A model generated the notes under the pieces. It was not told where the DNA came from. It saw only the letters and a program-made list of their open reading frames with translations, and ran no database searches. From assembly GCA_030431975.1 (NCBI GenBank), contig JAUIHP010000011.1, positions 1 through 64,000 on the forward strand: 64,000 bases of DNA, read 5' to 3'. Both the position numbers and the translations under genes were made by a program. Below are positions 33,048 to 48,617 of this stretch, piece by piece (position 1 is the first letter of the stretch; every line of letters starts with the position of its first letter). Source of the DNA: a bacterium (GTDB lineage Bacteria > Eisenbacteria > RBG-16-71-46 > CAIMUX01).

Positions 33048-33377
33048 ATGAAAACGAAAGCACCGACAACAACAGAACTCTCCCCCGAAGCCCTGGCCGC
33101 CGCGGCCCACTGCCTTCGCACCCTTGCCCACCCGGTTCGGCTACGCATCGTCGAGCTGTTGCTGGAAGACGAGCACACCGTCGGTGAGCTCGCGGAAGCC
33201 TGCCACGTCTCCCAATCGGTGGCTTCGACTCACCTCGGCGTCATGCGGGACCGTGGGATTCTCGAATCCGAGCGCAGAGGACGCAGGATCTACTACTTCG
33301 TCCACGAGCACGCGGCGACCGGAATCATGGAATGTATTCGCGCCCGATTCGGGCAACAGAACCGAGGCCGACAATGA
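33048..33377 (+). CDS. ArsR-family transcriptional repressor of the sulfur locus
   Basis: Winged-helix regulator of 109 residues: LRTLAHPVRLRIVELLLEDE, then the recognition helix region (VGELAEACHVSQSVASTHLG) and the wing (RGILESERRGRRIYYFV). Cys residues occur at about positions 16 (AAHCLRT), 51 (EACHVS) and 97 (MECI). Sulfide- or persulfide-sensing ArsR proteins (BigR/SqrR) use a Cys pair, but the positions here cannot be matched with certainty. It overlaps the octaheme cytochrome gene by ATGA (33374-33377), so it heads the operon. Start 33048 gives the usual family length; a longer start at 32814 is possible. Confidence 0.88.
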   Translation: MKTKAPTTTELSPEALAAAAHCLRTLAHPVRLRIVELLLEDEHTVGELAEACHVSQSVASTHLGVMRDRGILESERRGRRIYYFVHEHAATGIMECIRARFGQQNRGRQ

Positions 33378-34834
33378 CTTCTCGAGCGCGTGGTGGAATC
33401 GGCATCTTCCTGCTCGTGGCACTGGCGCTTCTCATTCCGTTGATGTGGCTGAACCGAGATCGGTCGGCACCTGCCGACGATCCCTGGGCTCAGGTTCCCC
33501 CAAGACTTCCGCAGACCGACCACACCGCGTTGCTTCCCGGCCCTTTTGCGGACGGACCTTCCGTCACCAAAGCCTGCCTCGAATGTCACGAAGACGCCGC
33601 GCACGAAGTCATGCAAACCGCGCATTGGACCTGGGAAAGCGAACCCGTCCCGGTCGACGGTCACGAAGGACTCGTCAAGCTGGGAAAGAAGAACGTCGTC
33701 AACAACTTCTGTATCAGCGTGCAAAGCAACTGGATGGGCTGCACGTCGTGTCATGCAGGGTACGGCTGGAAGGACGAGAACTTCGACTTCTCCGCAGAGG
33801 AGCAGGTCGACTGCCTGGTTTGTCATGACCACTCCGGTGGCTACGCGAAGACGAAGGCAGGACTTCCCGCCGACGGTGTCGATCTCGCCGCAGCAGCACA
33901 AAGCGTAGGGGGACCGACGCGCGACACGTGTGGCGGCTGCCACTTCAAAGGCGGAGGCGGCGACGCTGTCAAACACGGCGACATGGACACCAGCCTTCTC
34001 AATCCGCCCGCCCGGGTCGACGTTCATATGGGGAAGCATGGCCTGGTCTGCACCGACTGCCACCGCACGCAGGATCACCAGATTGCCGGGCGTTCGATCA
34101 GCGTCAGCGTCGACGATGCGAACCGCGCCAGCTGCACGGACTGTCACCAGGCCCGCCCCCATGCAGACGAACGTCTCGACCTTCACGCGGACGCCGTCGC
34201 CTGTCAGACCTGTCACATTCCCGAGGTGGCTCTTCGCGAGATGACCAAGGTCCACTGGGACTGGTCGCAAGCCGGACAGGACCGGGAGAACGCCGACCCG
34301 CACGAGTACTTGAAGAAGAAGGGTGAGTTCGTCATGGAGAGCCACCTCGCGCCGGAGTACGCCTGGTTCGACGGTACGGCGGGCCGCTATCTACTCGGTG
34401 ACCGAATCACCGAAACGGGACCGACGGAGCTCAACCCGCCGCACGGAAGCATACGGGACGAGGGCGCCAAGATCTGGCCGTTCAAGATCCATCGAGGCCG
34501 CCAGGTCTTCGACGAGGTCCACAGAACGCTTCTCGTTCCACAAACGGTCGGCCCCGGCGCCTACTGGGAAACCTTCGACTGGGACAGCGCACTGCGTATG
34601 GGATCAAAAGCCTCCAAGCTCGACTACAGCGGTAGCTACGGCTTTACGGAGACGGCAATGCACTGGCCGTTGACGCACATGGTCGCACCGAAAGAAGACG
34701 CACTCGGCTGTGCGGACTGCCACTCCGACGACGGAGTTCTGGATTGGGAAGCCTTGGGCTACCCGGGAGATCCGATCGAGTGGGGAGGCCGTCGGCAACT
34801 GCAGACCGCAGGAGTGGGAGGAGGTTCGAAATGA
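33374..34834 (+). CDS. Octaheme c-type cytochrome, tetrathionate reductase (OTR) family
   Basis: Periplasmic multiheme enzyme of 486 residues. The N-terminal helix (GIFLLVALALLIPLMWL) is a signal or anchor. Eight CxxCH sites occur: Cys68, 123, 147, 186, 226, 254, 277 and one near 451 (CADCH). Long heme-free stretches between the seventh and eighth, and NNFCISVQSNWMGCTSCHAG around the second, match the OTR family of Shewanella, which reduces tetrathionate, nitrite and hydroxylamine in vitro. ATG at 33374 overlaps the ArsR stop, and its own stop overlaps the next start, so expression is coupled. The direction of electron flow (reduction or sulfur oxidation) cannot be read from sequence. Confidence 0.92.
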   Translation: MTSRARGGIGIFLLVALALLIPLMWLNRDRSAPADDPWAQVPPRLPQTDHTALLPGPFADGPSVTKACLECHEDAAHEVMQTAHWTWESEPVPVDGHEGLVKLGKKNVVNNFCISVQSNWMGCTSCHAGYGWKDENFDFSAEEQVDCLVCHDHSGGYAKTKAGLPADGVDLAAAAQSVGGPTRDTCGGCHFKGGGGDAVKHGDMDTSLLNPPARVDVHMGKHGLVCTDCHRTQDHQIAGRSISVSVDDANRASCTDCHQARPHADERLDLHADAVACQTCHIPEVALREMTKVHWDWSQAGQDRENADPHEYLKKKGEFVMESHLAPEYAWFDGTAGRYLLGDRITETGPTELNPPHGSIRDEGAKIWPFKIHRGRQVFDEVHRTLLVPQTVGPGAYWETFDWDSALRMGSKASKLDYSGSYGFTETAMHWPLTHMVAPKEDALGCADCHSDDGVLDWEALGYPGDPIEWGGRRQLQTAGVGGGSK

Positions 34835-37443
34835 AACGCGCTTTCCTGACTCGAACCGATTCCTCACACGCTTTCACCGAAAGCAATCTTGGAGTCCCTT
34901 TCTTTGCCGCGTTGATCATTATTGTGGCGATGCACGTCTCGGCTGCAACGAGTCCGGCACGGGCCGGCGAGTTGCATCCGACCTTTCCGTTACTCGATGA
35001 TTCGGGACAGTCCGTTCTCGAGACCGGCCGGCCGGTTTCCTCCGACGTTACCTGCGGCAGCTGTCACGATACGGGATTCATTCGACAACACAACAGTCAC
35101 GCCGAAGTTGGAATCGACTGCTTTCTCTGTCACGTCCCGGGTGCGAATGACGAGGCGCGACGGCGATCGCTTCAGTCCGCGGCACCAGCCTGGTCCGCAA
35201 CCGCGACCCTTTTGGGAACCGGAATCGTGGAGCGGAGCATCGCCAACGAATCGCACACGGAACGAACTGCGGCGGGCTTCACCTACAACCCCTCGGCCTT
35301 CGACGAAGACGGCCACGTCCGCGCTTCCCACTTGACGCTTCAGGATCCGAAGAGCGAAGCCTGTGGCTCGTGTCACGGAGCTGTCCACGTCGACATGAAG
35401 GAAGCCTTCACCTGGGCAAACCTCGACGAGTCCGCAGGCGTGATGGATCCGGAGTGGACCAGTCTCCGCACCGGCCAGGTTTACTCGGCACAACCCATGC
35501 GCGAGTCGGGACTGAATCTACACGAGAAGTCCCGACTGACCCGAAGCTGGGACGCGCATGCGGAGCGGCAACTCGAGTGCGTCGACTGTCACTACTCGGT
35601 CAACAACCCGATCTATCGCCGCGCGTCCAAAGCCCGTCCGGCGCACCTTCGCTTCGATGCCCGGCGAATCGAACTCGGCGAGTACCTGAAACGTCCGAGC
35701 CACGTACTTGCCCACGGCGTCGAACTCGAGGCTCTGACCGATGACGGCGAGCACAACGTACCTACCCAGCGTGACGATCGCGGGCGCAGCGTTTCGACCC
35801 TGGCCGAAGACCCCGATGGGCTCGGCATGCCGGGCAGCATGCGCGACTGTGCGACCTGTCACGATCCATCCGCTGGGCACGACTGGTTGCCGTACGCAGA
35901 TCGCCACTTCGCAACGGTCTCCTGCGCTTCGTGTCATATCCCGACGATGCACGCCCCGGCACTGCGCACGGTCGACGCAACGCTCGTCGATGCGAACGGA
36001 TCGCCACGCATCGAACTGCGTGCGGTCGAGGGAGACGCCTCGCAGAGATGGGGCTTCGACATCTCCAGGGACATGGCTGCTACCTACGTCACCGGATTCG
36101 AACCGACACTACTGCCACGAAAGGAAGCGGACGGAAAGGAACGCCTCGCGCCGCACAACCTCGTCACGACCTACCGTTGGGTGACCGGGGACTCCCGGAC
36201 CGAGATCTCACCCGAGACGCTCGCCGAAGTCTTCTACGACGCACACGGACGACCTCGAGATTCACTGATCCGTGTCTTCGACAGCAACGGCGACGGGAGC
36301 TGCTCCGAGGAGGAGCTGCGACTGTCAACGACAGATCAGGTCGAGAGCGTACGAAGCCTTCTGATTGACGCCGGCTTCCATAACCCCCAAATCGAAGCGG
36401 TGACCGAGCCGTTTGCGATCACCCACGGAGTCGCCGGCGGCCAGTGGGCACTTCGAGACTGCGCGCAATGTCACAGTGACAACTCACGCGTCGATCGCAG
36501 TGTCCTTCTTGCCGCGTCTTCCCCGCCTGGGGTGACACCGAGGTTCTCCGGTGACCGAAGGACAACCTTGGCGGGAAGCATCCACCGCGCTCAGCATCCG
36601 GAGGACACCATCTACTCGCCAAGCCCGGCGCCGAGTCTCTACGTGCTTGGGAAACATGCCAACCTCGCCGCAGACCGAGTCGGGCTGGTTGCAGTGCTTC
36701 TCACCGTTCTCGGCATTGCCGTGCACAGCCTCCTTCGCCTGGCTCGCTCGCGGCGAACCGCCGGTTCAGAAGTTTCCAACGCCGGGGGCGCGGCCGGCGA
36801 AGTCCACACGGTCTACATGTACAACGCCTACGAACGCTTTTGGCACTGGCTGCAGGCCGCCGCGATCTTCGTCCTGCTGCTGACAGGACTCGAGATTCAC
36901 TTCCCCGGAAACTTCCGGGTCGTCGGCTTTGATCTCGCGGTGCGTTCCCACAACATCATGGGCTTCGTCGTTGTCATCAACGCCGCATTGTCCGCCTTCT
37001 ATCACTTCGCCAGCGGAGAGATCCGGCAGTTCGTGCCCGAACCACAAGGCTTCTTCCGTGGTGCGATTCTGCAGATCCGTTACTACCTTCGCGGCATCTT
37101 CCGCGGGGATCCGCACCCGTTCGAGAAGCATCCGGGACGGAAGATGAACGTGCTGCAGCAGGTCACGTATCTCGCGATCCTCAACCTCCTCCTTCCGCTG
37201 CAGATCGGAACCGGGCTACTTATGTGGGGAGCACAGCGTTGGAGTTCGGTGGACAGCGTTTTTGGCGGGCTTGGAGTGCTGGGTCCGATCCACGTTCTTG
37301 GGGCCTGGCTCTTCGCAGCGTTTCTCGTCGTTCACATCTATCTGACTACAACCGGGCCGACACCGACTGCCTATGTCAAGGCGATGGTGACGGGCTGGGA
37401 GGACGAACCTGCCTCGCACGTTGCAGGGGGAAGCTCGAAATGA
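34831..37443 (+). CDS. Heptaheme cytochrome c fused to a b-type membrane cytochrome
   Basis: Membrane electron-transfer protein of 870 residues. It has a signal helix (22-38) and seven CxxCH sites (Cys75, 97, 178, 250, 340, 365, 544). An EF-hand-like calcium loop is at 484-495 (DSNGDGSCSEEE). A membrane helix is near 612-636. A cytochrome b561/hydrogenase-type diheme domain spans about 660-850 (YNAYERFWHWLQAAAIFVLL...LAVRSHNIMG...GPIHVLGAWLFAAFLVVHIY), with His residues placed as heme b ligands. It could pass electrons between quinone and the octaheme enzyme. ATG at 34831 overlaps the previous stop by ATGA and has GGAGGAGG upstream. It shares a 4-base overlap with the following transporter gene. 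Confidence 0.92.
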   Translation: MKRAFLTRTDSSHAFTESNLGVPFFAALIIIVAMHVSAATSPARAGELHPTFPLLDDSGQSVLETGRPVSSDVTCGSCHDTGFIRQHNSHAEVGIDCFLCHVPGANDEARRRSLQSAAPAWSATATLLGTGIVERSIANESHTERTAAGFTYNPSAFDEDGHVRASHLTLQDPKSEACGSCHGAVHVDMKEAFTWANLDESAGVMDPEWTSLRTGQVYSAQPMRESGLNLHEKSRLTRSWDAHAERQLECVDCHYSVNNPIYRRASKARPAHLRFDARRIELGEYLKRPSHVLAHGVELEALTDDGEHNVPTQRDDRGRSVSTLAEDPDGLGMPGSMRDCATCHDPSAGHDWLPYADRHFATVSCASCHIPTMHAPALRTVDATLVDANGSPRIELRAVEGDASQRWGFDISRDMAATYVTGFEPTLLPRKEADGKERLAPHNLVTTYRWVTGDSRTEISPETLAEVFYDAHGRPRDSLIRVFDSNGDGSCSEEELRLSTTDQVESVRSLLIDAGFHNPQIEAVTEPFAITHGVAGGQWALRDCAQCHSDNSRVDRSVLLAASSPPGVTPRFSGDRRTTLAGSIHRAQHPEDTIYSPSPAPSLYVLGKHANLAADRVGLVAVLLTVLGIAVHSLLRLARSRRTAGSEVSNAGGAAGEVHTVYMYNAYERFWHWLQAAAIFVLLLTGLEIHFPGNFRVVGFDLAVRSHNIMGFVVVINAALSAFYHFASGEIRQFVPEPQGFFRGAILQIRYYLRGIFRGDPHPFEKHPGRKMNVLQQVTYLAILNLLLPLQIGTGLLMWGAQRWSSVDSVFGGLGVLGPIHVLGAWLFAAFLVVHIYLTTTGPTPTAYVKAMVTGWEDEPASHVAGGSSK

Positions 37444-37991
37444 AGACACTCTCGACACAGGGAGCCAACGGCGTTGGTCACCATGGCCGCCCCTATCTGG
37501 ATCCGTACCTGGCCGGCGCTTTGCTTGGACTGGTTCTATTCGCCGCGTTCTTCGTGACGGGAAACGGACTCGGTGCCTCCGGCGGAATCGCCCGCGTTCT
37601 TGTCGCCGCGGAAGATCAGATCGTTCCCGAGCACGTCGACCGAACGGCCTACCTTCTGAACATGGCCGGTGGAGAGACCGATCCGCTCGATCACTGGATC
37701 GTGGTCGTCACCGTCGGAACGATCCTTGGTGGTTTTCTTTCCGGGCTGCTTCACCACCGACTCCATCCGGAAACGGCTCGCGGCCCCCGGATTTCTGCCC
37801 GCACACGTTGGATCTTCGCGCTGCTCGGCGGCGTCCTGATGGGCTACGGCGCACGCCTGGCCCGTGGCTGCACCTCCGGACAGGCTTTGTCGGGCGGAGC
37901 CGTTCTGTCGGTGGGCAGTTGGGCATTCATGTTCGCCGTCTTTGCGGGCGGCTATGCCTTGGCCTGGTTCGTCCGAAAGCTTTGGACCTGA
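37440..37991 (+). CDS. YeeE/YedE (TsuA-like) sulfur transport protein, short form
   Basis: Inner-membrane protein of 183 residues with about four helices. The family moves thiosulfate or related sulfur anions through a channel lined by conserved Cys residues. Here the signature GYGARLARGCTSGQALSG is at 136-152 with Cys144. The protein is about half the size of a full YeeE, so it probably pairs with the next gene's product. ATG at 37440 overlaps the preceding cytochrome stop. It lies between the cytochromes and the second YeeE-type protein, which supports a role in handling the sulfur substrate or product. Confidence 0.9.
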   Translation: MKTLSTQGANGVGHHGRPYLDPYLAGALLGLVLFAAFFVTGNGLGASGGIARVLVAAEDQIVPEHVDRTAYLLNMAGGETDPLDHWIVVVTVGTILGGFLSGLLHHRLHPETARGPRISARTRWIFALLGGVLMGYGARLARGCTSGQALSGGAVLSVGSWAFMFAVFAGGYALAWFVRKLWT

Positions 37992-38072: not shown

Positions 38073-39320
38073 ATGGCACCCTTCGCACTCACAGATCAGT
38101 TCGGCAAAGTGATCGCCTATCTTATCTACTTCGGCATCGGCGTGAGCTTCGGTTCCGTTCTCGAGATGGCGGGGTTTGCGGACTCGCGGCGACTCGCCGG
38201 TCAGTTCTACTTCCGCAACATCACCGTTCTCAAGGTCATGTTCACTGCGATCGTCACAGCCATGGTGTTGGTCTTTCTGTCTTCCGCACTGGGGTGGCTC
38301 GATTACCCTCGCGTCTACGTCAACCCGACGTATCTCGTACCGGGCATCATCGGCGGACTGATCATGGGCGTCGGCTTCATCCTCGGCGGCTTCTGTCCGG
38401 GAACCTCCCTCGTGGCCGTGTCCAATCTCAGAATCGATGCACTCTTCTTCTTTGTCGGTGTCAGCGCCGGCGTCTTCGCTTTCGGTGAGTCGGTGGGACG
38501 CTTCACGGAGTTTTTCTATTCGAGTTCCATGGGACGTTTCACGTTGCCCGAATGGTTGGGAGCACCGACCGGAATCGTCGTTGTCGGTGTTGTCGCCATG
38601 GCGCTCTTCATGTTCTGGGGTGGAGAGAAGCTGGAGCGAAAGTTTGGCTCGCCCCAGGAATACGCTGCGGTTCGGGTCCTTCCAGTCCGGATTCGCTACG
38701 GCGCATCCGCGGGTCTCATGGGATTGGCCCTGCTCGCCTTGATTCTCGGGCAACCGTCCGCCGAGGACCGCTGGCAACGAGCCGGCACAGAAACCCACGC
38801 TCTCCTGGTAGAGCGCGGCGCATTCATCCACCCCGGCGAGCTGTTACAGCTCTCTCAGAACCGGCAGATCAAACTACTCATCCTCGACGTGAGAAGCGAA
38901 GCCGAGTACAACGTGTTTCATCTCACGGACTCGAGACGTGTCGAGATGGAAGAGATCGATGAAGGCATTCTCAGTCTGGAACTTCTAAACGCAGATGCCA
39001 ACACCGTGACGGTGCTGCTGTCGAACGCCGAGGAGCGGGCAACTCGCGCTTGGCAACGGCTGAAGGCGGATCGCGTCCTCAATACCTATGTTCTCGACTC
39101 CGGAATCAACGGCTGGGTGGATCTCTTCGGCTCGCAGGCACTCGCACCACGCGCCGGATCTAAGCCGGTCGGCACGATGAGGCATGCCTTCCCCGCCGCA
39201 CTCGGCGCCGCGCAGCCAGGCGCCGACCTCGATGTGTTGAGTCATGAGCACCGGCAACTCAGCTTCGAACCCAAGGTCAAACTGCAGACGAAGAAGAAGC
39301 TTGGGGGCGGGTGCGGGTAG
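38073..39320 (+). CDS. YeeE/YedE transporter fused to an inactive rhodanese-like domain, C-terminal GGGCG
   Basis: Inner-membrane protein of 415 residues. Residues 10-228 hold about six helices with the family motif GGFCPGTSLVAVSNLR (Cys108). Residues about 250-355 look like a rhodanese domain (LLILDVRSEAEYNVFHL...YVLDSGINGWVD), but the loop that normally carries the catalytic Cys reads VTVLLSNAEERA, with Ser317. A 45-residue tail ends KKKLGGGCG, with Cys414 second from the end, resembling the GGCGG swinging arm of SoxY. ATG at 38073 follows a GA-rich ribosome-binding region. The 81-base gap after the short YeeE gene suggests the same operon. A sulfur-carrier role for the tail is inference. 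Confidence 0.9.
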   Translation: MAPFALTDQFGKVIAYLIYFGIGVSFGSVLEMAGFADSRRLAGQFYFRNITVLKVMFTAIVTAMVLVFLSSALGWLDYPRVYVNPTYLVPGIIGGLIMGVGFILGGFCPGTSLVAVSNLRIDALFFFVGVSAGVFAFGESVGRFTEFFYSSSMGRFTLPEWLGAPTGIVVVGVVAMALFMFWGGEKLERKFGSPQEYAAVRVLPVRIRYGASAGLMGLALLALILGQPSAEDRWQRAGTETHALLVERGAFIHPGELLQLSQNRQIKLLILDVRSEAEYNVFHLTDSRRVEMEEIDEGILSLELLNADANTVTVLLSNAEERATRAWQRLKADRVLNTYVLDSGINGWVDLFGSQALAPRAGSKPVGTMRHAFPAALGAAQPGADLDVLSHEHRQLSFEPKVKLQTKKKLGGGCG

Positions 39321-40216: not shown

Positions 40217-41800
40217 ATGAAAAGCTTTCGATCCTTCCGTCCCTCTGGCGATCACGGTCTCGCTGTCGAGGGTCGGCCCGAGGCATTCCTTCGCTTTTGC
40301 CGGCGCGCCGTCCCTGGTATCGCGTTCGCATTGGCTCTGACTGGACCCATCGGTTGTGTCGATGACAAGGATGACACAGATGGCCTACCTACGGAGCCCG
40401 CGGATACCACTCCGGTGCCGACGCGCTACGGTGCCCTTGGCAACAGCCTGACCGCCGGCTTCATCAACGGAGGCCTCGTTCAGGGAGGGCAGGTCGCAAG
40501 CTATCCCGTGCTCGTCGCGAACCAGGCGGGATGGAACATCAACAACGAGATCGGCGCAACAACGCTGCCGCTCATCCTCGATCCCGGCATCGGCTCGACG
40601 GTGGTCGACGGCATCCCCCAAAGTGCGATCTTCGTCAATGAACAGGGCGGCCTTTCGACGACGCCGGTCAATCCGCTGGAGCTGCTTCATCCGAATCTGA
40701 GTCGTCTTCCAAGGCCGTACGACAATCTCGGGATTCCCGGCGCCACGACGCTCGACCTGCTCCAGGCGACCGACGCGACGACCAGCCAGTCACCCGGCAA
40801 TCTCTACTTCGATCTGATCCTTCGCAACGCCAATCTGCCCCCCGGCAACTGGACGGCGCTAGACGCGATGACCGCGAGAAATCCGAACGCGCTGAGCATG
40901 TGGATCGGCTCGAATGACATCCTGGGCGGAGCCCTCGGCGGCAACCCGGTTGTCGGGCAGAACATCACTCCACCGCAAGCTTGGGAGCAGATCTTCCTCG
41001 GCGTCGTTGCCCGCATCGACGCGATGAACGCGAGCTACGTTGCTCTGGCCGGTGTCGCAAACGTGGCAGACATTCCGTACGTCACGACGATCCCGGCGAA
41101 CCTGGGCACGGAGAAGATGCCGCTGCGTTTCAACACAGAGGAAGCGGATGTCGAGTTCGTTCTTCTTCCGTTCGGTTTGGCCGCACTTTCACAAGAGGAC
41201 CCTGCCGGTTGGTTCTTCTCCCATGTTCAGGGCTTCGGCACCAGCATCGTTCCGTCGCACTGGACGCTGACGGCATCAGAAGTCGCCGACATCGAGAACA
41301 CGGCACGCGCCTACAACGTCATCATCGAGCGTGAATGCCAGGCGCGCGGGTGGGCCTATGTCGACGCTTTGAGCGAGCTCGCAGCCCTCGAAAAGGATCC
41401 ACGGATCCTCACCGACGCAGATCCTCAGGACGGCACTCCCGACCAGTTCACCGAGGTCAATGGTTACTTCCCCTGGTTCCCACAGATCTCCGCGCAGGGA
41501 TTCAACCTGATCCGCAATGCTCGTTCGGCATTCAGTCTGGACGGTGTGCATCCCAGCGAAGTGGGACAGGCTCTGACCGCCAACGCCTTCATCCGCGCGT
41601 TCAACGATGCCTACGGCCTCGGGATCCAGGAGATCCCACTCGCCGTCATCAACAACAACGTCGGATTCGAGAACGCACCCGGTTTCGCCCGAGTTTCGGG
41701 CTCGGCAAACGCGGAAGACCGGCCGGCCGGACCGTTTGTCGATACGGGTGTGACTGAAGTCATGGAAGCGCTTCCCAGCCTGATGGGAACGGTCCGCTGA
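40217..41800 (+). CDS. SGNH/GDSL-type lipoprotein hydrolase
   Basis: Predicted lipase or esterase of 527 residues. The signal region ends PIGC (Cys47). GALGNSLTAGF places the nucleophile at Ser77. GIPGATTLDLL (block II-like), WIGSNDILGG (block III, GxND) and SLDGVHPSEVG (block V, Asp and His of the triad, near 443-446) follow. Long insertions enlarge the fold beyond the usual ~200-residue core. AAGGAG lies 6 bases before the ATG. It is the first of five co-oriented genes that end with an RND transporter, so it may act on a lipid or ester handled by that system. Confidence 0.9.
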   Translation: MKSFRSFRPSGDHGLAVEGRPEAFLRFCRRAVPGIAFALALTGPIGCVDDKDDTDGLPTEPADTTPVPTRYGALGNSLTAGFINGGLVQGGQVASYPVLVANQAGWNINNEIGATTLPLILDPGIGSTVVDGIPQSAIFVNEQGGLSTTPVNPLELLHPNLSRLPRPYDNLGIPGATTLDLLQATDATTSQSPGNLYFDLILRNANLPPGNWTALDAMTARNPNALSMWIGSNDILGGALGGNPVVGQNITPPQAWEQIFLGVVARIDAMNASYVALAGVANVADIPYVTTIPANLGTEKMPLRFNTEEADVEFVLLPFGLAALSQEDPAGWFFSHVQGFGTSIVPSHWTLTASEVADIENTARAYNVIIERECQARGWAYVDALSELAALEKDPRILTDADPQDGTPDQFTEVNGYFPWFPQISAQGFNLIRNARSAFSLDGVHPSEVGQALTANAFIRAFNDAYGLGIQEIPLAVINNNVGFENAPGFARVSGSANAEDRPAGPFVDTGVTEVMEALPSLMGTVR

Positions 41801-41874
41801 TGTTGTCGGCAGAACACGGAACGACTTTGCCGCACCCCTCACACAGGACAACCCGAGGGAAGGAGACTGGCCCT

Positions 41875-43692
41875 ATGGGAACGCGAATCTGCTCGAGGAT
41901 CTCCACGGAACTGGGAGTCCTCCTCGCAGCCGCCGCTTTGACCGGCATGGCCTCAGCCTTGTTCGTAAGCGACGCAACGGCGGTCGAATTTACGGCCGCC
42001 GAAGGTGAGTTCACCGGGAGCCTGGACGCCTCGGTCGACATCGGCGCTGCGTTTCGGGTTTCCGATCGGGACAGCGACCTCGTCGGAACGCAAAACGGCG
42101 GCGAGGCCCACTCCGTCAATGGAGACAACGGAAACCTGAACTACGACTCCGGAGACATGACGTCCGCAAGCGGGAAGCTCACCTACGAGTTCCTCGCCAA
42201 CTACAAGTACCTGTCGGCCTTCAGCCGCGGGTTCTATCTGTACGACAACGTCATCATGAACTCCGACACCAAGCGGACGGAGCTCAGCTCCCGCGCCGAG
42301 GAAGAGCTGGGCGACGACTTCACCCTGCTCGACGCCTACCTCGCCCTGGACCTGCCCGTCGGCAGCAGCTATCTGACGGTCAAGGGCGGAAACATGGTTC
42401 TCAGTTGGGGTGAAAGCACTTTCATTCAGAACGGAATCAATCGCGTCAATCCCGTCAACGTGGCCAAGCTTCGGAACGCCGGCGCCGAGATCAAAGACGC
42501 GCTCAACGCGGTTCCGATGATCGACGTCGCCTTCGACATCAACGAGCGGTTCTCGGCAGAAGGGTTCTACCAATTCGAATGGGACCACACCGAGGTAGAA
42601 CCGGAAGGGACCTTCTTCTCGACGAATGACTTTGCCAGCCCGGGCGGCGAGTACGTCATGCTCGGATTTGGAGCCGAAGGAATCGCCGACAATCCGCCGG
42701 ACGCCGGACAGAACATCCCGGTCGGAAGCGCCGTTCGTCGCCAGCATGACCGGAACGCCTCGAATGACGGGCAGTTCGGCGCGGCCGTTCGTTGGTTCGA
42801 GCCGAACCTCAACGACACGGAATTGGGCTTCTACTTCCTAAGGCTGCACTCGCGTCTGCCGGTTCTCAGTGCAATCACCGGTACGGAAGCGGGACTGGCC
42901 AACTCCAACTACGCCGCCACGGCGCGATACTTCCGTGAGTTCCCGGAAGACGTCGACACCTACGGATTCAGTTTCAACACCGAGGTTCAGGCCATCGGAT
43001 CCGCGGTCCAAGGCGAGGTTTCCTACCACAAGGACCAGCCGCTTCAGATCGACGACGTCGAGCTGTTGTTTGCCGCACTCTCGCCGCTCAACGTCACCAC
43101 ACCCGACGGCACCGGCATCTTCGAGCAAAACCAGATCGGCGACTTCGGTTTCGAAGAGGAGATCACGGGCTGGCGCAAGAAGGACGTTCTGCAGGCGCAG
43201 ATGACGTTGACGCGTCTCTTCGGGCCGCGTTTCGGCGCCGACCAGTTTGTCGCCCTCGGTGAAATCGGTGGAACTTTTGTCCAGGACCTCGAAAGCCAGG
43301 ACGAGCTGCGCTACGAAGGTCCCGGAACCTTCACCGGCGGAAATGAGTTCTTTACTACGGTAGGGGTACAACCTGAGACGGCCTCGGAAGACGGCTTTGC
43401 CGACGAGACTTCATGGGGCTACCGGATGGTCCTCCGCGGCGATTACAACGGCGCGCTCGGCCCGGTCAATCTGCAACCGCAGCTGGCCTGGTCGCATGAT
43501 GTCAGTGGAACCACTCCGAGCCCGATCGTCAACTTCATCGAAGGACGAAAGACGATCACGGCGTCTCTTGCCGCAAGCTACCTCTTTCAATGGAACTTCC
43601 GGCTCTCTTACACCAACTCCTTCGGCGGGGACGCCTACAATCTGCTGAAGGACCGAGACTTTGTCGCACTGACCCTCGGGTATTCCTACTAG
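41875..43692 (+). CDS. DUF1302 outer-membrane family protein
   Basis: Large beta-rich protein of 605 residues with a signal peptide (MGTRICSRIS...DATAVEF). The DUF1302 pattern is clear: an N-terminal GSLDASVDIGAAFRVSDRD, NLNYDSGDMTSASGKLTYEF, a central LTVKGGNMVLSWGESTF.QNGINRVNP block and a final LSYTNSFGGDAYNLLKDRDF...LGYSY. The family is a predicted outer-membrane barrel, always exported, role unproven. GGGAAGGAG lies about 10 bases before the ATG. It is directly followed by a DUF1329 gene, its regular partner. Confidence 0.92.
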   Translation: MGTRICSRISTELGVLLAAAALTGMASALFVSDATAVEFTAAEGEFTGSLDASVDIGAAFRVSDRDSDLVGTQNGGEAHSVNGDNGNLNYDSGDMTSASGKLTYEFLANYKYLSAFSRGFYLYDNVIMNSDTKRTELSSRAEEELGDDFTLLDAYLALDLPVGSSYLTVKGGNMVLSWGESTFIQNGINRVNPVNVAKLRNAGAEIKDALNAVPMIDVAFDINERFSAEGFYQFEWDHTEVEPEGTFFSTNDFASPGGEYVMLGFGAEGIADNPPDAGQNIPVGSAVRRQHDRNASNDGQFGAAVRWFEPNLNDTELGFYFLRLHSRLPVLSAITGTEAGLANSNYAATARYFREFPEDVDTYGFSFNTEVQAIGSAVQGEVSYHKDQPLQIDDVELLFAALSPLNVTTPDGTGIFEQNQIGDFGFEEEITGWRKKDVLQAQMTLTRLFGPRFGADQFVALGEIGGTFVQDLESQDELRYEGPGTFTGGNEFFTTVGVQPETASEDGFADETSWGYRMVLRGDYNGALGPVNLQPQLAWSHDVSGTTPSPIVNFIEGRKTITASLAASYLFQWNFRLSYTNSFGGDAYNLLKDRDFVALTLGYSY

Positions 43693-43762
43693 GACCCGTG
43701 TCGTTGCCAGCCGCGCAGACCGACGGGAGTGTTCTCTCGCGGTCATGGAGGAAGTGAACTCG

Positions 43763-45223
43763 ATGTCACGGATCACGAAGACTCTGATGGGTCGACTACG
43801 TAATCGAAACACGGCCGTCGGCAGCCGGACTGCCGGCCTGAACGCCGGGTTGTCCGCAGGACTGACTGCCGGCCTGGCTGCAGGATTGTCCGCAGGTCTG
43901 CTCGTCTGCCTCTCGTCACCAGCTTCGGCCAAGGTGTCGGGCGCGGAGGCAGCCAAACTCGGAGGGGAACTGACTCCGGTCGGAGCCGAGACCGCCGGGA
44001 ATGCCGACGGATCCATCCCGGCTTGGAACGGCGGTATCACCACGCCGCCCTCCGGCTATCAGCCCGGAGACTTTCACGTCGATCCGTACGCCAACGACCA
44101 GCCGCTGGCTACGATCACGGCAGAGAACGTCGACAGCTATCGGGACGTGCTCTCTCCGGGACAGATCGCAATGTTCGAGCGCTATCCCGAAACGTGGAGC
44201 ATGAAGGTCTATCCGACACACCGGAGCGCGAGCTATCCGCAGCGGATCTATGACGCGATTGCGGCCAACGCCACGACTGCCGAGCTCGTCGACGGCGGCA
44301 ACGGTGTCGGCAACTGCGGCGAAGGCGTTCCGTTTCCGATTCCGCAGAGCGGCGTCGAGGTGGTTTGGAACCACCTGCTTCGTTTCCGCGGCGAGTCCGT
44401 CAGTCGAAAGCTCGGACAGGTCGCACCGACTTCGGGCGGTAGCTACACCATGGTCATGATCGACGACAGTGTCCTTTGGAAGTACATGCTGCCCGGTTCG
44501 ACCGTCGGTTCGATCAACAACCGTCTCGGCCTGTTTCTGCAGAGAGTGACGTCGCCGGCCCGTCTGGCCGGTTCCATTCTGCTGGTCCACGAAACACTCG
44601 ACCAGACGAAGGAGCCGCGGAAGGCGTGGGTCTACAATCCGGGACAGCGCCGCGTCCGGCGCGCACCCAACGTCGCGTACGACAATCCCGGGACCGCCGC
44701 CGACGGCCAGCGGACCAGCGACCAACTCGACGTCTTCAACGGCTCTCCGGACCGCTACGACTGGACGCTCGTCGGCAAGAAGGAGATGCTCGTCCCCTAC
44801 AACTGCTACGCGCTGCACAGCCCGGAGCTCAAGTACGACGACATCATTCAGGCCGGTCACATCAATCCGGAGCACCTGCGCTACGAGAAGCATCGCGTTT
44901 GGGTCGTGGACGGCAAGGTCAAGGACGGAACGAGCCACGTCTATGCCCGCCGTACGTTCTTCATCGACGAAGACAGCTGGCAGATCCTGGTCGCCGACCA
45001 GTTCGATGCCCGCGACGAGATCTGGCGGGTCTCCGAGGCGTACGTCATCAACTATTACGAACAGCCCCTGATCTGGGATACTCTTCAGGTGCACTACGAT
45101 CTACAGAACGGTCGGTACCTCGCCTTCGGTTTCAACAACGAAGGAAACATCGAGGAATTCGATCTCGACCTGAAGGAAGCGGACTTCACTCCGGAGGCGC
45201 TGCGCCGCGAAGGGCGGCGTTGA
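43763..45223 (+). CDS. DUF1329 periplasmic protein
   Basis: Exported protein of 486 residues. The N-terminal 50 residues are an unusually long signal peptide whose core is six AGLx repeats. The mature part has the DUF1329 blocks: AAKLGGELTPVGAETAGNADG, IPAWNGGI, MKVYPTHRSASYP, GVEVVWNHLLRFRG, RVRRAPNVAYDNPG and YCKY-type LKYDDIIQAGHINP. The fold is LolA/LolB-like, so it may carry a lipid across the periplasm. GGAGG lies 11 bases before ATG 43763; the ATG at 43745 overlaps that site and is rejected. Its stop overlaps the next start (TTGA). Confidence 0.92.
   Translation: MSRITKTLMGRLRNRNTAVGSRTAGLNAGLSAGLTAGLAAGLSAGLLVCLSSPASAKVSGAEAAKLGGELTPVGAETAGNADGSIPAWNGGITTPPSGYQPGDFHVDPYANDQPLATITAENVDSYRDVLSPGQIAMFERYPETWSMKVYPTHRSASYPQRIYDAIAANATTAELVDGGNGVGNCGEGVPFPIPQSGVEVVWNHLLRFRGESVSRKLGQVAPTSGGSYTMVMIDDSVLWKYMLPGSTVGSINNRLGLFLQRVTSPARLAGSILLVHETLDQTKEPRKAWVYNPGQRRVRRAPNVAYDNPGTAADGQRTSDQLDVFNGSPDRYDWTLVGKKEMLVPYNCYALHSPELKYDDIIQAGHINPEHLRYEKHRVWVVDGKVKDGTSHVYARRTFFIDEDSWQILVADQFDARDEIWRVSEAYVINYYEQPLIWDTLQVHYDLQNGRYLAFGFNNEGNIEEFDLDLKEADFTPEALRREGRR
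43829..43900 (+). repeat. Six 12-bp repeats in a signal peptide
   Basis: Six in-frame 12-base units encode (T/N/S/A)AGL six times in the hydrophobic core of the DUF1329 signal peptide. Units one and four are identical (ACTGCCGGCCTG); three and six differ at one base in the glycine codon. Confidence 0.88.
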
Positions 45224-46311
45224 CGCATGCGAACATTCGGCGAGAGCACGATCATAGGAAACGTTCTTCGACCGGGGCCATAGGCTCCGGTCGACTTGTC
45301 CCCCGGTCCGGCCCGGAGCACTCGGCCGGACTTCTTTCGCTGCTCGCCAGCGGCCTTCTCTTTCTTTTGATTCTGTTCGGACTGTTCGGTCCCTTGCGAC
45401 CGAACCTCGCAACGGCTGCGGACCTTCTCGTTCTCGACGTTTCGGTTCTGGAAGACGGCTCCCTCGTCGCCGTCGGGGATCACGGAAACATCCTTCTTCG
45501 TGGCCCTGCTCCGACGGATTCCTGGACCGTATCCTCCGTTCCGACCGATCGCCTGATCTCGGCGGTCTCGTTCACCTCCCCAACCGTCGGCTGGGCCGTG
45601 GCACACGACGCACTGATCCTGCAGACGACCGACAGTGGCCGAGTTTGGAATCTTCGGTACGAAGATCCGGATGCGCGGGCGCCGTTCCTTGATGTCTGGT
45701 CTTCCGGGGATACCCGAGCCATCGCCGTCGGTGCGTATGGATTCTACGTCGAAACGAGTGATGCCGGGAACAGCTGGGAGGACCGGTTGGTCGACGCGGA
45801 CGAGCCTCACTTCTATTCGATCGCATCGAGCTCGAACGACTCCCTCTACATCGCCGGCGAGTTCGGAACCGTTCTTCGATCCGGCGATCAGGGTCTCTCG
45901 TGGACCCGCCTGACAACTCCCTACCCGGGCACGCTGTTCGGAGTCCTTCCGATCGTCGACGACACCCTTTTGATCTACGGCCTTCGCGGAAACCTCTACC
46001 GATCCGAGGACGCGGGCGACAACTGGAGTCAAATCGATCTCGGCACGACGGCTTCTCTTCTCACCGGATCCGTGGGTACCGACGGTCGCGTTCTTTTGGC
46101 AGGGTCCGCCGGAGCGATGTTCGAATCGAGGGACGGCGGACGGACTTTCGTTTCCCTGGGCCGCAACGATCGACTTCTGCTGACCGGAATGGCGGAAACC
46201 TCCGACGGGATCTGGCTCTGCTCCGAGCAGGGAGTCTTCGGTCCTGACGGAAGCAAGAACGTACTGCCACGCGCACCCGTCGTCATCGCGCCGGAAAGTG
46301 ACGAACCATGA
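45220..46311 (+). CDS. YCF48/BNR-type beta-propeller, exported
   Basis: Predicted periplasmic propeller of 363 residues. An N-terminal hydrophobic helix (SLLASGLLFLLILFGLFG) is followed by repeated blades with the Asp-box/BNR-like motif (TTDSGRVWNL, TSDAGNSWED, SGDQGLSWTR, SEDAGDNWSQ, SRDGGRTFVS), as in photosystem assembly factor YCF48. No ATG precedes the signal helix in this frame. TTG at 45220 overlaps the DUF1329 stop (TTGA) and is taken as a coupled start. Its stop overlaps the RND gene start by ATGA. Such propellers often act as assembly or scaffold partners for the RND protein. Confidence 0.87.
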   Translation: MTHANIRREHDHRKRSSTGAIGSGRLVPRSGPEHSAGLLSLLASGLLFLLILFGLFGPLRPNLATAADLLVLDVSVLEDGSLVAVGDHGNILLRGPAPTDSWTVSSVPTDRLISAVSFTSPTVGWAVAHDALILQTTDSGRVWNLRYEDPDARAPFLDVWSSGDTRAIAVGAYGFYVETSDAGNSWEDRLVDADEPHFYSIASSSNDSLYIAGEFGTVLRSGDQGLSWTRLTTPYPGTLFGVLPIVDDTLLIYGLRGNLYRSEDAGDNWSQIDLGTTASLLTGSVGTDGRVLLAGSAGAMFESRDGGRTFVSLGRNDRLLLTGMAETSDGIWLCSEQGVFGPDGSKNVLPRAPVVIAPESDEP

Positions 46312-48617
46312 TCCAATCTCTTTCCGGCTTTCTCTTCGGAAGACGACCGATCGTGTTGATCGGCCTCGTGCTCGTCACGATCTTCCTCGGGTACCGGTGT
46401 TCGCAGTTACGGATCGACGCCGGGTTCGAGAAACTGCTTCCGCTCGATCATCCGTACATGAAGACCTACGTCGAGCACCGCGACGCCTTCGGCGGGGCCA
46501 ACCGGCTGCTCATCGCGGTCCGTTCCAAAGACGGCGACATCTTTCAGCCCGAGTTCTTCCAGACATTGAAGGACGTGACTGACGCCGTCTTCTTTCTACC
46601 GGGTGTCAACCGCAGCACCGTTCAGTCTCTGTTTACGCCCAACGTTCGTTTCATCGAGATCGTCGAGGGTGGATTTGCCGGCGGCAACGTCATCCCGGCC
46701 GACTTCCAACCGAACCCGCACGACCTCGCCGTCGTTCGCGACAACGTGCTCAAAGCAGGAATCGTCGGACGCCTCGTCTCCAATGACTTCACCGCGGCCA
46801 TGGTCACTGCACAGCTCGCGGAGACCGATCCCAATACCGGCGAGAAGCTCGACTACACCGAAGTCGCGCACCGTCTCGAAAGCGACATACGCGAGCGCTT
46901 TCAGAGCGAGGACATCGACATCCACATCCTTGGCTTTGCCAAGATCATGGGAGACATCGCGGACGGGGCCGCCGGAGTGGTTCTGTTCTTTGGTATCGCA
47001 CTGGTCGTAACCGCCATCCTCGTCTACCTCTTCACGCACTCGGTCCGGCTGACTGCCCTACCCCTCTTCTGTTCGATCATCGCGGTGATATGGAGTCTCG
47101 GACTCTTGGAGCTCATCGGCTTCGGGCTCGACCCCATGTCTTTGCTCGTTCCCTTTCTGGTCTTCGCGATCGGCGTCTCGCACGGCGTGCAGATGGTCAA
47201 CGCCTACGGATCGGAAGTGGAGCAGGGAGCTCGCGGCGACGAAGCGGCTCCGGCGGCATTTCGTCGTCTCGCGGTGCCCGGTTGGACCGCGCTTCTCAGC
47301 GACACCGTCGGCTTCCTCACTCTCCTTCTGATCAAGATTCGGATCATTCAGGAGTTGGCGCTAACCGCAAGCCTGGGCGTGCTCGTCATCGTGGTGACGA
47401 ATCTGGTCCTGTTGCCCGTGCTTCTCTCGTACCTCGACCTCGGCGATCGATATCGCGACCGACTTCGTCGAAACGCCCCCAAGAAGGAACCGACCTGGCG
47501 TTTCCTTTCGCGCTTCAGCGACGCCCGCTTCGCGCTGTTCCCGATTGCCGCCGCCATCGCTCTCGCCTTCTTCGGCCTTTCGAGAGCCGGGGACGTGGCC
47601 ATCGGAGACACCCATGCCGGCGTCCCCGAGCTTCGCCCGGAGTCACGCTACAACACCGACACAGCCATCGTGACGGACAAGTTCTCGATCGGGCTCGACA
47701 TTCTGAGCGTGATCGTCGAGACCATCCCCGACGGCTGTGTCGAGCACGACATCATGGACCGAATCGATCGTTTCGCGTGGTACATGAGCGGGGTCCCCGG
47801 CGTTCAGTCGGTCATCTCACTGCCGCAGATCGCCAAGACCATCAACGCGGGTTGGAACGAAGGGCATCCGGCCTGGCGGGTTCTTCCCGAGAACAGCTCT
47901 TCACTCTCCCAGGCCGTCTCACCCGTCGATACGTCCACCGGCCTGCTCAACAGCAATTGTTCCGCGATGCCCGTCATGTTGTTCCTCGAAGACCATCGCG
48001 CCGAGACGATCGAAACCGTCGTCGACGCGGTCGAATTGTGGTCCGATGAAAACGACAGCGATCGCCACCAGTTCCGTCTGGCAACTGGCCATGTCGGGGT
48101 TATGGCCGCGACCAACGAAGTCGTCGAGGGCGCGCAGTTCAAGATGCTCATCTACATCTACGTCGCGGTCACGCTGCTTTGCCTCATGACCTTCGGTTCG
48201 CTGCGGGCCGTTCTCTGCATCATCCTGCCGCTGAGTCTCGTTTCCATTCTGTGCTACGCGCTGATGTCGATGCTCGGGATCGGACTCAAGACGACGACCC
48301 TTCCGGTCACTGCGCTCGGTGTCGGCATCGGGGTCGATTACGGGATCTACATCTTCAGTCGGCTGCGGGAAGAGCTCAAGGATGGCGTCTCGTTGACGGA
48401 AGCGTTCCTGCGGACACTGAGGGTCACAGGGAACGCGGTCTTGGTTACGGGATTGACGTTGGCGGTCGGCGTCTCGACCTGGATCTTCTCGGCGCTGCAG
48501 TTTCAGGCCGACATGGGTGTGTTGTTGACGTTCATGTTCCTGGCGAACATGGTTGGGGCGGTTGTGCTGCTGCCTGCCCTGGCTCGGGTGCTCTTCCGGC
48601 GCCAGGGCAACCAGTGA
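46308..48617 (+). CDS. RND-superfamily (MMPL/HpnN-type) transporter
   Basis: Membrane protein of 769 residues with two copies of the MMPL module. Each copy has one helix, a large periplasmic domain, then five helices (first helix 13-30; helix clusters near 230-370 and 615-760). Sequence landmarks include FAIGVSHGVQMVNAYGSEVE and LPVTALGVGIGVDYGIYIFSRLREE, where acidic residues in the helices carry the proton relay. Relatives move lipids, hopanoids or mycolates. ATG at 46308 overlaps the previous stop. It is the last gene of the GDSL / DUF1302 / DUF1329 / YCF48 operon; the operon probably moves a hydrophobic substrate to the outer membrane. Confidence 0.93.
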   Translation: MIQSLSGFLFGRRPIVLIGLVLVTIFLGYRCSQLRIDAGFEKLLPLDHPYMKTYVEHRDAFGGANRLLIAVRSKDGDIFQPEFFQTLKDVTDAVFFLPGVNRSTVQSLFTPNVRFIEIVEGGFAGGNVIPADFQPNPHDLAVVRDNVLKAGIVGRLVSNDFTAAMVTAQLAETDPNTGEKLDYTEVAHRLESDIRERFQSEDIDIHILGFAKIMGDIADGAAGVVLFFGIALVVTAILVYLFTHSVRLTALPLFCSIIAVIWSLGLLELIGFGLDPMSLLVPFLVFAIGVSHGVQMVNAYGSEVEQGARGDEAAPAAFRRLAVPGWTALLSDTVGFLTLLLIKIRIIQELALTASLGVLVIVVTNLVLLPVLLSYLDLGDRYRDRLRRNAPKKEPTWRFLSRFSDARFALFPIAAAIALAFFGLSRAGDVAIGDTHAGVPELRPESRYNTDTAIVTDKFSIGLDILSVIVETIPDGCVEHDIMDRIDRFAWYMSGVPGVQSVISLPQIAKTINAGWNEGHPAWRVLPENSSSLSQAVSPVDTSTGLLNSNCSAMPVMLFLEDHRAETIETVVDAVELWSDENDSDRHQFRLATGHVGVMAATNEVVEGAQFKMLIYIYVAVTLLCLMTFGSLRAVLCIILPLSLVSILCYALMSMLGIGLKTTTLPVTALGVGIGVDYGIYIFSRLREELKDGVSLTEAFLRTLRVTGNAVLVTGLTLAVGVSTWIFSALQFQADMGVLLTFMFLANMVGAVVLLPALARVLFRRQGNQ

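Follow-up and report, generated by a model that had tools for sequence, protein, structure and literature searches.

In the split YeeE channel, PmpB constitutes the N half and PmpA the C half, and in the TsuA-TsuB (YeeE-YeeD) system the channel is accompanied by TsuB, a soluble cytoplasmic TusA-like protein, according to PMC11582611. In the related pair YedE1E2, both pore Cys are required for the import of zero-valent sulfur (PMC10812762). Rhodanese-like selenoproteins are also known, with Sec located in UxxS, UxxG, CxU or UxxxxU motifs, and the selenoprotein tables of the same source include a YeeE/YedE selenoprotein with the motif GUxSG and an OTR-family selenoprotein for which no motif is given (PMC13188914).

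The window, a stretch of 64,000 nucleotides from a bacterial contig (JAUIHP010000011.1), contains at 38073-39320 on the plus strand an ORF of 415 amino acids coding for a YeeE-rhodanese fusion. Two Pfam domains were recognized above their cut-offs, Sulf_transp (PF04143) at residues 43-224 (E 1e-16, above the gathering score) and Rhodanese (PF00581) at residues 254-349 (E 2.4e-10, 41.2 bits against a cut-off of 22.2). The Pfam scan of the fusion at E up to 0.1 returned only these two, the SoxY domain PF13501 being absent. The protein begins with a PmpB-like YeeE N-half (38073-38642, +), assigned by PF04143 and alignment, with the pore Cys108 in the motif FCPGT. An extra helix of residues 205-225 (38685-38747, +; a DSSP helix in the model, with a mean hydropathy of 1.51 over 87 rows) leads from the half-channel to an acysteinyl rhodanese-like domain (38832-39119, +), which was delimited by PF00581 and by solved folds. 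The chain ends in a C-terminal GGGCG arm, a basic tail with a disordered end (39270-39317, +), as judged from low pLDDT and the tail pattern. Only two Cys are present in the whole protein, namely Cys108 and Cys414 (codon TGC at 39312-39314). The pore Cys108 was Cys in 87/87 aligned fusions; together with PF04143 in both complementary halves, this corresponds to a channel of the YeeE/PmpAB type. The score with the NCBIfam TsuA equivalog was 17.9 bits, below its cut-off of 400.

The AlphaFold2 model of the fusion, built on a 63-row alignment, had a mean pLDDT of 91.2 and a pTM of 0.85, while residues 411-415 showed pLDDT values below 50 (41 in the last block), so that the tail end is disordered and has no pose. 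Solved rhodanese folds superposed on residues 239-385 with Z values of about 10-12 in VIA-align, the best match giving Z 12.3 over 102 residues at 2.0 A. The VIA-align rows span the rhodanese part without the membrane half, and therefore no claim on the membrane half is drawn from them. In the model, strand 311-316 is followed directly by Ser317 (codon TCG at 39021-39023), which occupies the catalytic-Cys place of rhodaneses. The alignment with the PDB-sequence profile put the catalytic Cys one column earlier, against residue 316 with a gap; Cys was absent from both columns in every relative aligned, 128 domains in all. The fold of an active rhodanese is thus present and its catalytic loop Cys is absent.

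The sequence-only reading of this gene had placed Ser317 at the position of the catalytic Cys and had described a KKKLGGGCG end with a penultimate Cys. Both features were seen in the ORF, and both turned out to be common to the family. Among 128 distinct homologous C-terminal domains, the loop residue was Ser in 110, Gly in 12, Asp in five and Ala in one, and in none of them was it Cys. The tail, defined as G[G/S] followed by Cys or Sec and 0-2 small residues, was kept in 126/128, so the comparison of tail Cys with loop Ser in homologues came out as that reading had anticipated. Its doubt, namely that the Ser could be a local change with the loop Cys retained elsewhere, is answered by the same 0/128; a local change or a sequencing oddity was ruled out, as the loop lacks Cys throughout. 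The emphasis on Ser itself was not borne out, the position drifting to Gly, Asp and Ala, and what stands is the loss of the loop Cys. A drifting loop residue next to a constant tail suggests selection on the tail and not on Ser. As far as the aligned sequences tell, loop-Cys loss combined with a tail Cys is a family trait. The same picture was obtained with 87 full-length proteins, in which residue 317 was Ser in 70, Gly in 11, Asp in five and Ala in one, and the tail position was Cys in 84 and an ORF stop in three.

The observed tail endings were GGCG (87 domains), GGC (25), GGUG (5), GGCS (3), GGCGG and GSC (two each), GGCSS and GGCA (one each). The two exceptions were L007, which ends in EGC, and L124, whose fusion gene is split over two frames with the GGGCG tail in the second. 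An ending of GGC with 0-2 small residues was found in only 2/809 other ORFs of the same loci, which argues against a chance origin of the tail. The net charge of the tail was positive in 122/126, and the tail residue was the sole Cys/Sec of the whole C-terminal domain in 89/128.

These sequences were collected in several searches. The first gave matches in 18/99 genomes, six of them with full-length fusions (L002-L005, L008 and L010), all without the loop Cys and ending in GGC, GGCG or GGCS. Of 571 relatives confirmed in a scan of species genomes, the best 80 loci were kept, and more distant relatives are hence undersampled. Added genomes yielded matches in 20/400 cases in the phylum of L025, 37/245 in that of L066 and 6/47 in the window's own phylum. 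The 128-domain tally leaves out the repeat loci L001, L106, L129 and L159-L161, the locus L011, and the loci recorded for tRNA, SelB or SoxY (L100-L105, L164-L165); removal of three further identical rows reduced the tally from 131 to 128. L121 stops at a contig end, L132 contains a run of unknown residues, and Sec was marked in this tally solely by the rule GG-TGA-[G/S/A]-stop. Among the carriers is a cultured species, Vibrio hangzhouensis (L054). No relatives were found in the viral scan or in PHROGs.

In the window the fusion is the last of five genes on the plus strand, in the order ArsR, OTR, multiheme-cytochrome b561, PmpA-like half and fusion. The octaheme cytochrome c (33374-34834, start possibly at 33332) scored 569.5 bits with TIGR04315 against a cut-off of 375 and carries 8 CxxCH motifs, which places it in the OTR family. 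It aligned with the OTR of S. oneidensis (1sp3) over residues 63-483 with E 7.1e-143. Its one non-heme Cys, Cys127, was Cys in 71/71 relatives and, as counted on the alignment, corresponds to Cys64 of 1sp3. The next gene (34831-37443) codes for a multiheme protein with seven CxxCH motifs fused to a cytochrome b561-type domain (PF01292, E 7.8e-24), and it is followed by the second, PmpA-like YeeE half with a CTSG motif (37440-37991; PF04143 profile positions 178-309, E 1.4e-21). The operon is conserved: of the best 80 of 571 loci, 67 contain OTR, 73 the heme domain, 76 cytochrome b and 78 the second half-channel, several of the misses falling at contig ends. The regulator at 33048-33377 belongs to the ArsR family (NF033788 over cut-off) and is BigR/SqrR-like, the BigR model matching with E 1e-16 but below its cut-off; Cys occurs in its EACHVS and MECIRA stretches, a possible sulfur-sensing dithiol. 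Downstream, a Tll0287-like protein (PF11845; 39346-40032, minus strand) converges on the fusion gene, and adjacent DUF1302 and DUF1329 proteins at 41800-45223 lie beside a large membrane protein at 46308-48617. In the tree, the window fusion grouped with L029 from Gemmatimonadota (61% identity). The copy in L003, a genome of the same family as the window's, has a domain identical to that of L062 (Ca. Eisenbacteria) and grouped with Myxococcota rows; the operon may therefore have moved between phyla.

Among 13 wider stretches (L166-L178), 8 had no OTR match. In seven of these (L166, L168, L169, L173, L174, L177 and L178) the half-channels have as neighbours genes that match a PhsA-like molybdoprotein, a 4Fe-4S subunit and an NrfD-type subunit, and in the other, L167, the contig ends just upstream of them. 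The best score of the L168 molybdoprotein was with thiosulfate reductase PhsA (E 2e-140), below the PhsA cut-off. Judging from gene neighbourhood, a Phs/Psr-like molybdoenzyme takes the place of OTR beside the channel and arm in such relatives. The system also occurs in a split form, with the rhodanese as a separate protein; this form was seen in the phylum of L066 and in L169, which belongs to the window's own class. The split rhodaneses examined from the phylum of L066 have at the start a short basic segment together with a hydrophobic helix, and GGC at the end, so that a separately anchored rhodanese ending in GGC adjoins a bare half-channel. The GGC tail is present in the split form and beside Phs/Psr-like partners, and has thus persisted through separation of the genes as well as a change of partner.

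In five relatives the tail Cys codon is replaced by an in-frame TGA, followed by a Gly codon and a stop. In L025, L043 and L066 the GGG codons are followed by TGA-GGC-stop, which rules out a loss of the tail in these three, and L130 and L131 are alike. A hairpin was found 12-13 nt past the TGA (position 16 or 17 from its T) in 5/5 TGA-tailed genes and in 0/83 Cys-tailed ones. It has a 6-bp stem and a 3-nt loop with G first, a shape with a shuffle rate of 0.006. In the five related sequences from which the pairs were counted, 4/6 pairs had changed on both sides and all 30 cells were paired (100%), against at most 66.7% in slid controls. No Rfam family matched the hairpins, and Rfam gave no SECIS. 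For the Sec 3' regions, raw folding energies ranged from -9.6 to -15.0, which is not unusual next to the Cys-tailed median of -10.7 (n 80), and the evidence thus lies in hairpin position and covariation, not in stability. tRNA-Sec was over cut-off in 5/5 genomes with TGA tails; it is present as well in Cys-tailed carrier genomes, the window's own among them, and is accordingly not specific to TGA tails. SelB was over cut-off in 2/3 TGA-tail genomes tested, the third having a partial match of 195.9 bits. These observations are consistent with translation of the tail TGA as Sec, and the exchange at this position argues for a reactive chalcogen. The five Sec rows form one clade (SH-aLRT 95) that spans Chloroflexota and Neomarinimicrobiota, in a tree built by a quick method and with several long branches, and the Cys-to-Sec exchange may have been a single event.

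An in-frame TGA was also observed at the pore Cys (GF/GY-TGA-PGT) of the bare YeeE N-halves L011, L025 (its second YeeE half), L122, L123, L125 and L128, which suggests Sec in the channel itself. In the window's own genome, a tRNA-Sec match of 70.7 bits was located at C41:150025-150116, and selenoproteins may be made elsewhere in that genome.

The rhodanese domain and arm are most likely periplasmic. This assignment is based on a modest charge bias around the extra helix (mean K+R 4.0 and D+E 3.2 before it, 2.6 and 4.0 after it), on the split protein's resemblance to a signal-anchored one and on the c-type hemes of the partners, such hemes being periplasmic. The reading somewhat favoured here is that of a channel-tethered periplasmic sulfur-carrier arm, SoxY-like in its chemistry but not a SoxY. 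The fusion gene would provide one half of a YeeE/PmpAB-type sulfur channel, whose extra helix would bear the rhodanese-like domain on the periplasmic side; this domain, its own nucleophile lost, would serve as scaffold for the basic flexible arm. The penultimate Cys of the arm, or Sec in some relatives, would be the reactive thiol, and a sulfur unit would be held on Cys414 as persulfide or thiosulfonate. The arm would ferry this unit between two sites, the catalytic centre of the respiratory enzyme encoded alongside (OTR with multiheme-cytochrome b in the window, a Phs/Psr-like molybdoenzyme in relatives) and the entrance of the PmpAB channel. There the basic tail would swing to the pore, and the sulfur would pass to Cys108 and to its counterpart Cys in the second half. 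Thiosulfate, polysulfide and tetrathionate are candidate substrates. The tail probably hands sulfur between the channel and the neighbouring enzyme, with the sulfur load on the tail Cys and the contacts of the arm with OTR and channel as presumed steps; as for the direction of flow, import of sulfane sulfur is our guess. The proposal made beforehand, that the thiol had moved from the loop to the tail, gains from the Cys/Sec exchange in five relatives, from OTR synteny at 67/80 loci and from the Phs/Psr-like replacement, whereas persulfide carriage, partner and direction are still what we infer. The loop-Cys loss, the tail conservation, the Cys/TGA exchange, the operon and the partner swap are themselves read directly from the genes.

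Two rivals of the carrier arm weigh most: sulfur may flow to the reductase as with Sud, or the arm may serve redox chemistry alone. Sud donates sulfur to Psr in the periplasm, and by analogy the rhodanese and arm could feed sulfane sulfur to the reductase, with the channel removing product or bringing sulfur out, so that the net flow would be outward or respiratory. The Phs/Psr-like partners in relatives fit this, as does the presence among the PDB matches of the profile (E 1.3e-5) of 1qxn, listed as sulfide dehydrogenase, which we take to be Wolinella Sud. It is nevertheless considered unlikely, because the rhodanese nucleophile is missing in 128/128 domains and because the related YedE1E2 imports sulfur and does not export it (PMC10812762). 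In a redox arm, the tail Cys/Sec would deliver electrons or resolve disulfides and no sulfur atom would be carried. Mammalian thioredoxin reductase has a C-terminal Gly-Cys-Sec-Gly arm, and the fusion tail, with its disordered end, likewise places Gly after a penultimate Cys/Sec; together with the TGA variants and the electron-transfer proteins as neighbours, this would agree with such a function. The arm of the fusion, however, has no second Cys adjoining, the tail residue being in most domains the only Cys/Sec, and the system is found together with sulfur channels and with reductases of sulfur compounds, which makes a purely redox role rather improbable.

Two further explanations dispense with sulfur altogether and are given very little weight. 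The tail Cys could bind metal or heme, or serve as a lipid or anchor site, given that the neighbours are heme-rich and that modification of a Cys at the C-terminus is possible in principle. Yet the chain stops 0-2 residues past the Cys, leaving no sorting helix after it, and reactive sites are where an exchange of Cys and TGA followed by a covarying hairpin is typically met, so this is hardly to be expected. That selenium is handled instead of sulfur is suggested by a weak resemblance to selenium YedE models and by the TGA at the pore Cys of some bare halves, and is likewise very improbable, as the selenium YedE model scores far below cut-off, the partners resemble sulfur-compound enzymes and most carriers use Cys.

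In the literature searched, from which subscription papers mostly and bioRxiv preprints wholly fell outside the scope, no account was found of a fusion between YeeE and rhodanese whose tail keeps a conserved GGC or GGU, in line with the original remark that no such arrangement was known. No YeeE-rhodanese fusion with a GGC tail is described in the available portions of PMC13188914, PMC12142623, PMC11237559, PMC11582611, PMC8780430, PMC9774590, PMC13047784, PMC12998232, PMC11073785, PMC10812762, PMC9312934, PMC12285233 and PMC8840924. Carrier arm and split channel are known parts, and it is their apparent joining in these genes for which no description was found. Carrier and channel appear to be physically joined here, and the idea turns on one residue, Cys414. 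In its fullest form, which is put forward tentatively and with somewhat less than even confidence, the proposal is a sulfane-sulfur channel with its own swinging periplasmic Cys/Sec arm, the rhodanese nucleophile having moved to the tail; this arm would dock by turns on the pore and on respiratory enzymes that can replace one another. If true, extracytoplasmic sulfur chemistry and sulfane-sulfur import would take place in one machine that does not require SoxYZ.

When the known systems are compared, the nearest analogy is the chemistry of SoxY, whose reactive Cys stands in a C-terminal GGCG(G) arm. KVTIGGCGG is the end of two SoxY proteins encoded by carrier genomes, and the fusion arms are similar to this but not identical, GGCG being found in 87/128 and GGCGG in 2/128. 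Unlike SoxY, the fusion lacks a SoxY domain, and its arm is borne by a channel-tethered rhodanese fold. A SoxY match was absent from 33/35 of the carrier genomes searched and present in 2/35, and the interpretation as a Sox component was therefore rejected for most carriers. The window pair resembles PmpA/PmpB (YedE1/YedE2) in its two half-channels with one pore Cys each, and differs in that the PmpB-like half adds an extra helix, a rhodanese-like domain and a GGC arm and has a respiratory enzyme as partner. With TsuA-TsuB it has in common a YeeE channel that works beside a sulfur-handling Cys partner, which is here a rhodanese-like and presumably periplasmic arm, unlike TsuB. The non-heme Cys of the octaheme tetrathionate reductase of S. 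oneidensis (1sp3) is conserved in the window OTR, which differs in sharing its operon with cytochrome b, the channel and the arm. The TGA-tailed relatives would share Sec with the known rhodanese-like selenoproteins, at a site located in the C-terminal tail. The GUxSG Sec tabulated for YeeE/YedE is at another site than the tail, and the OTR-family selenoprotein of the same tables is another protein; as far as the available part of PMC13188914 goes, the Cys/Sec exchange described here would add a tail-Sec type of selenoprotein to the YeeE family.
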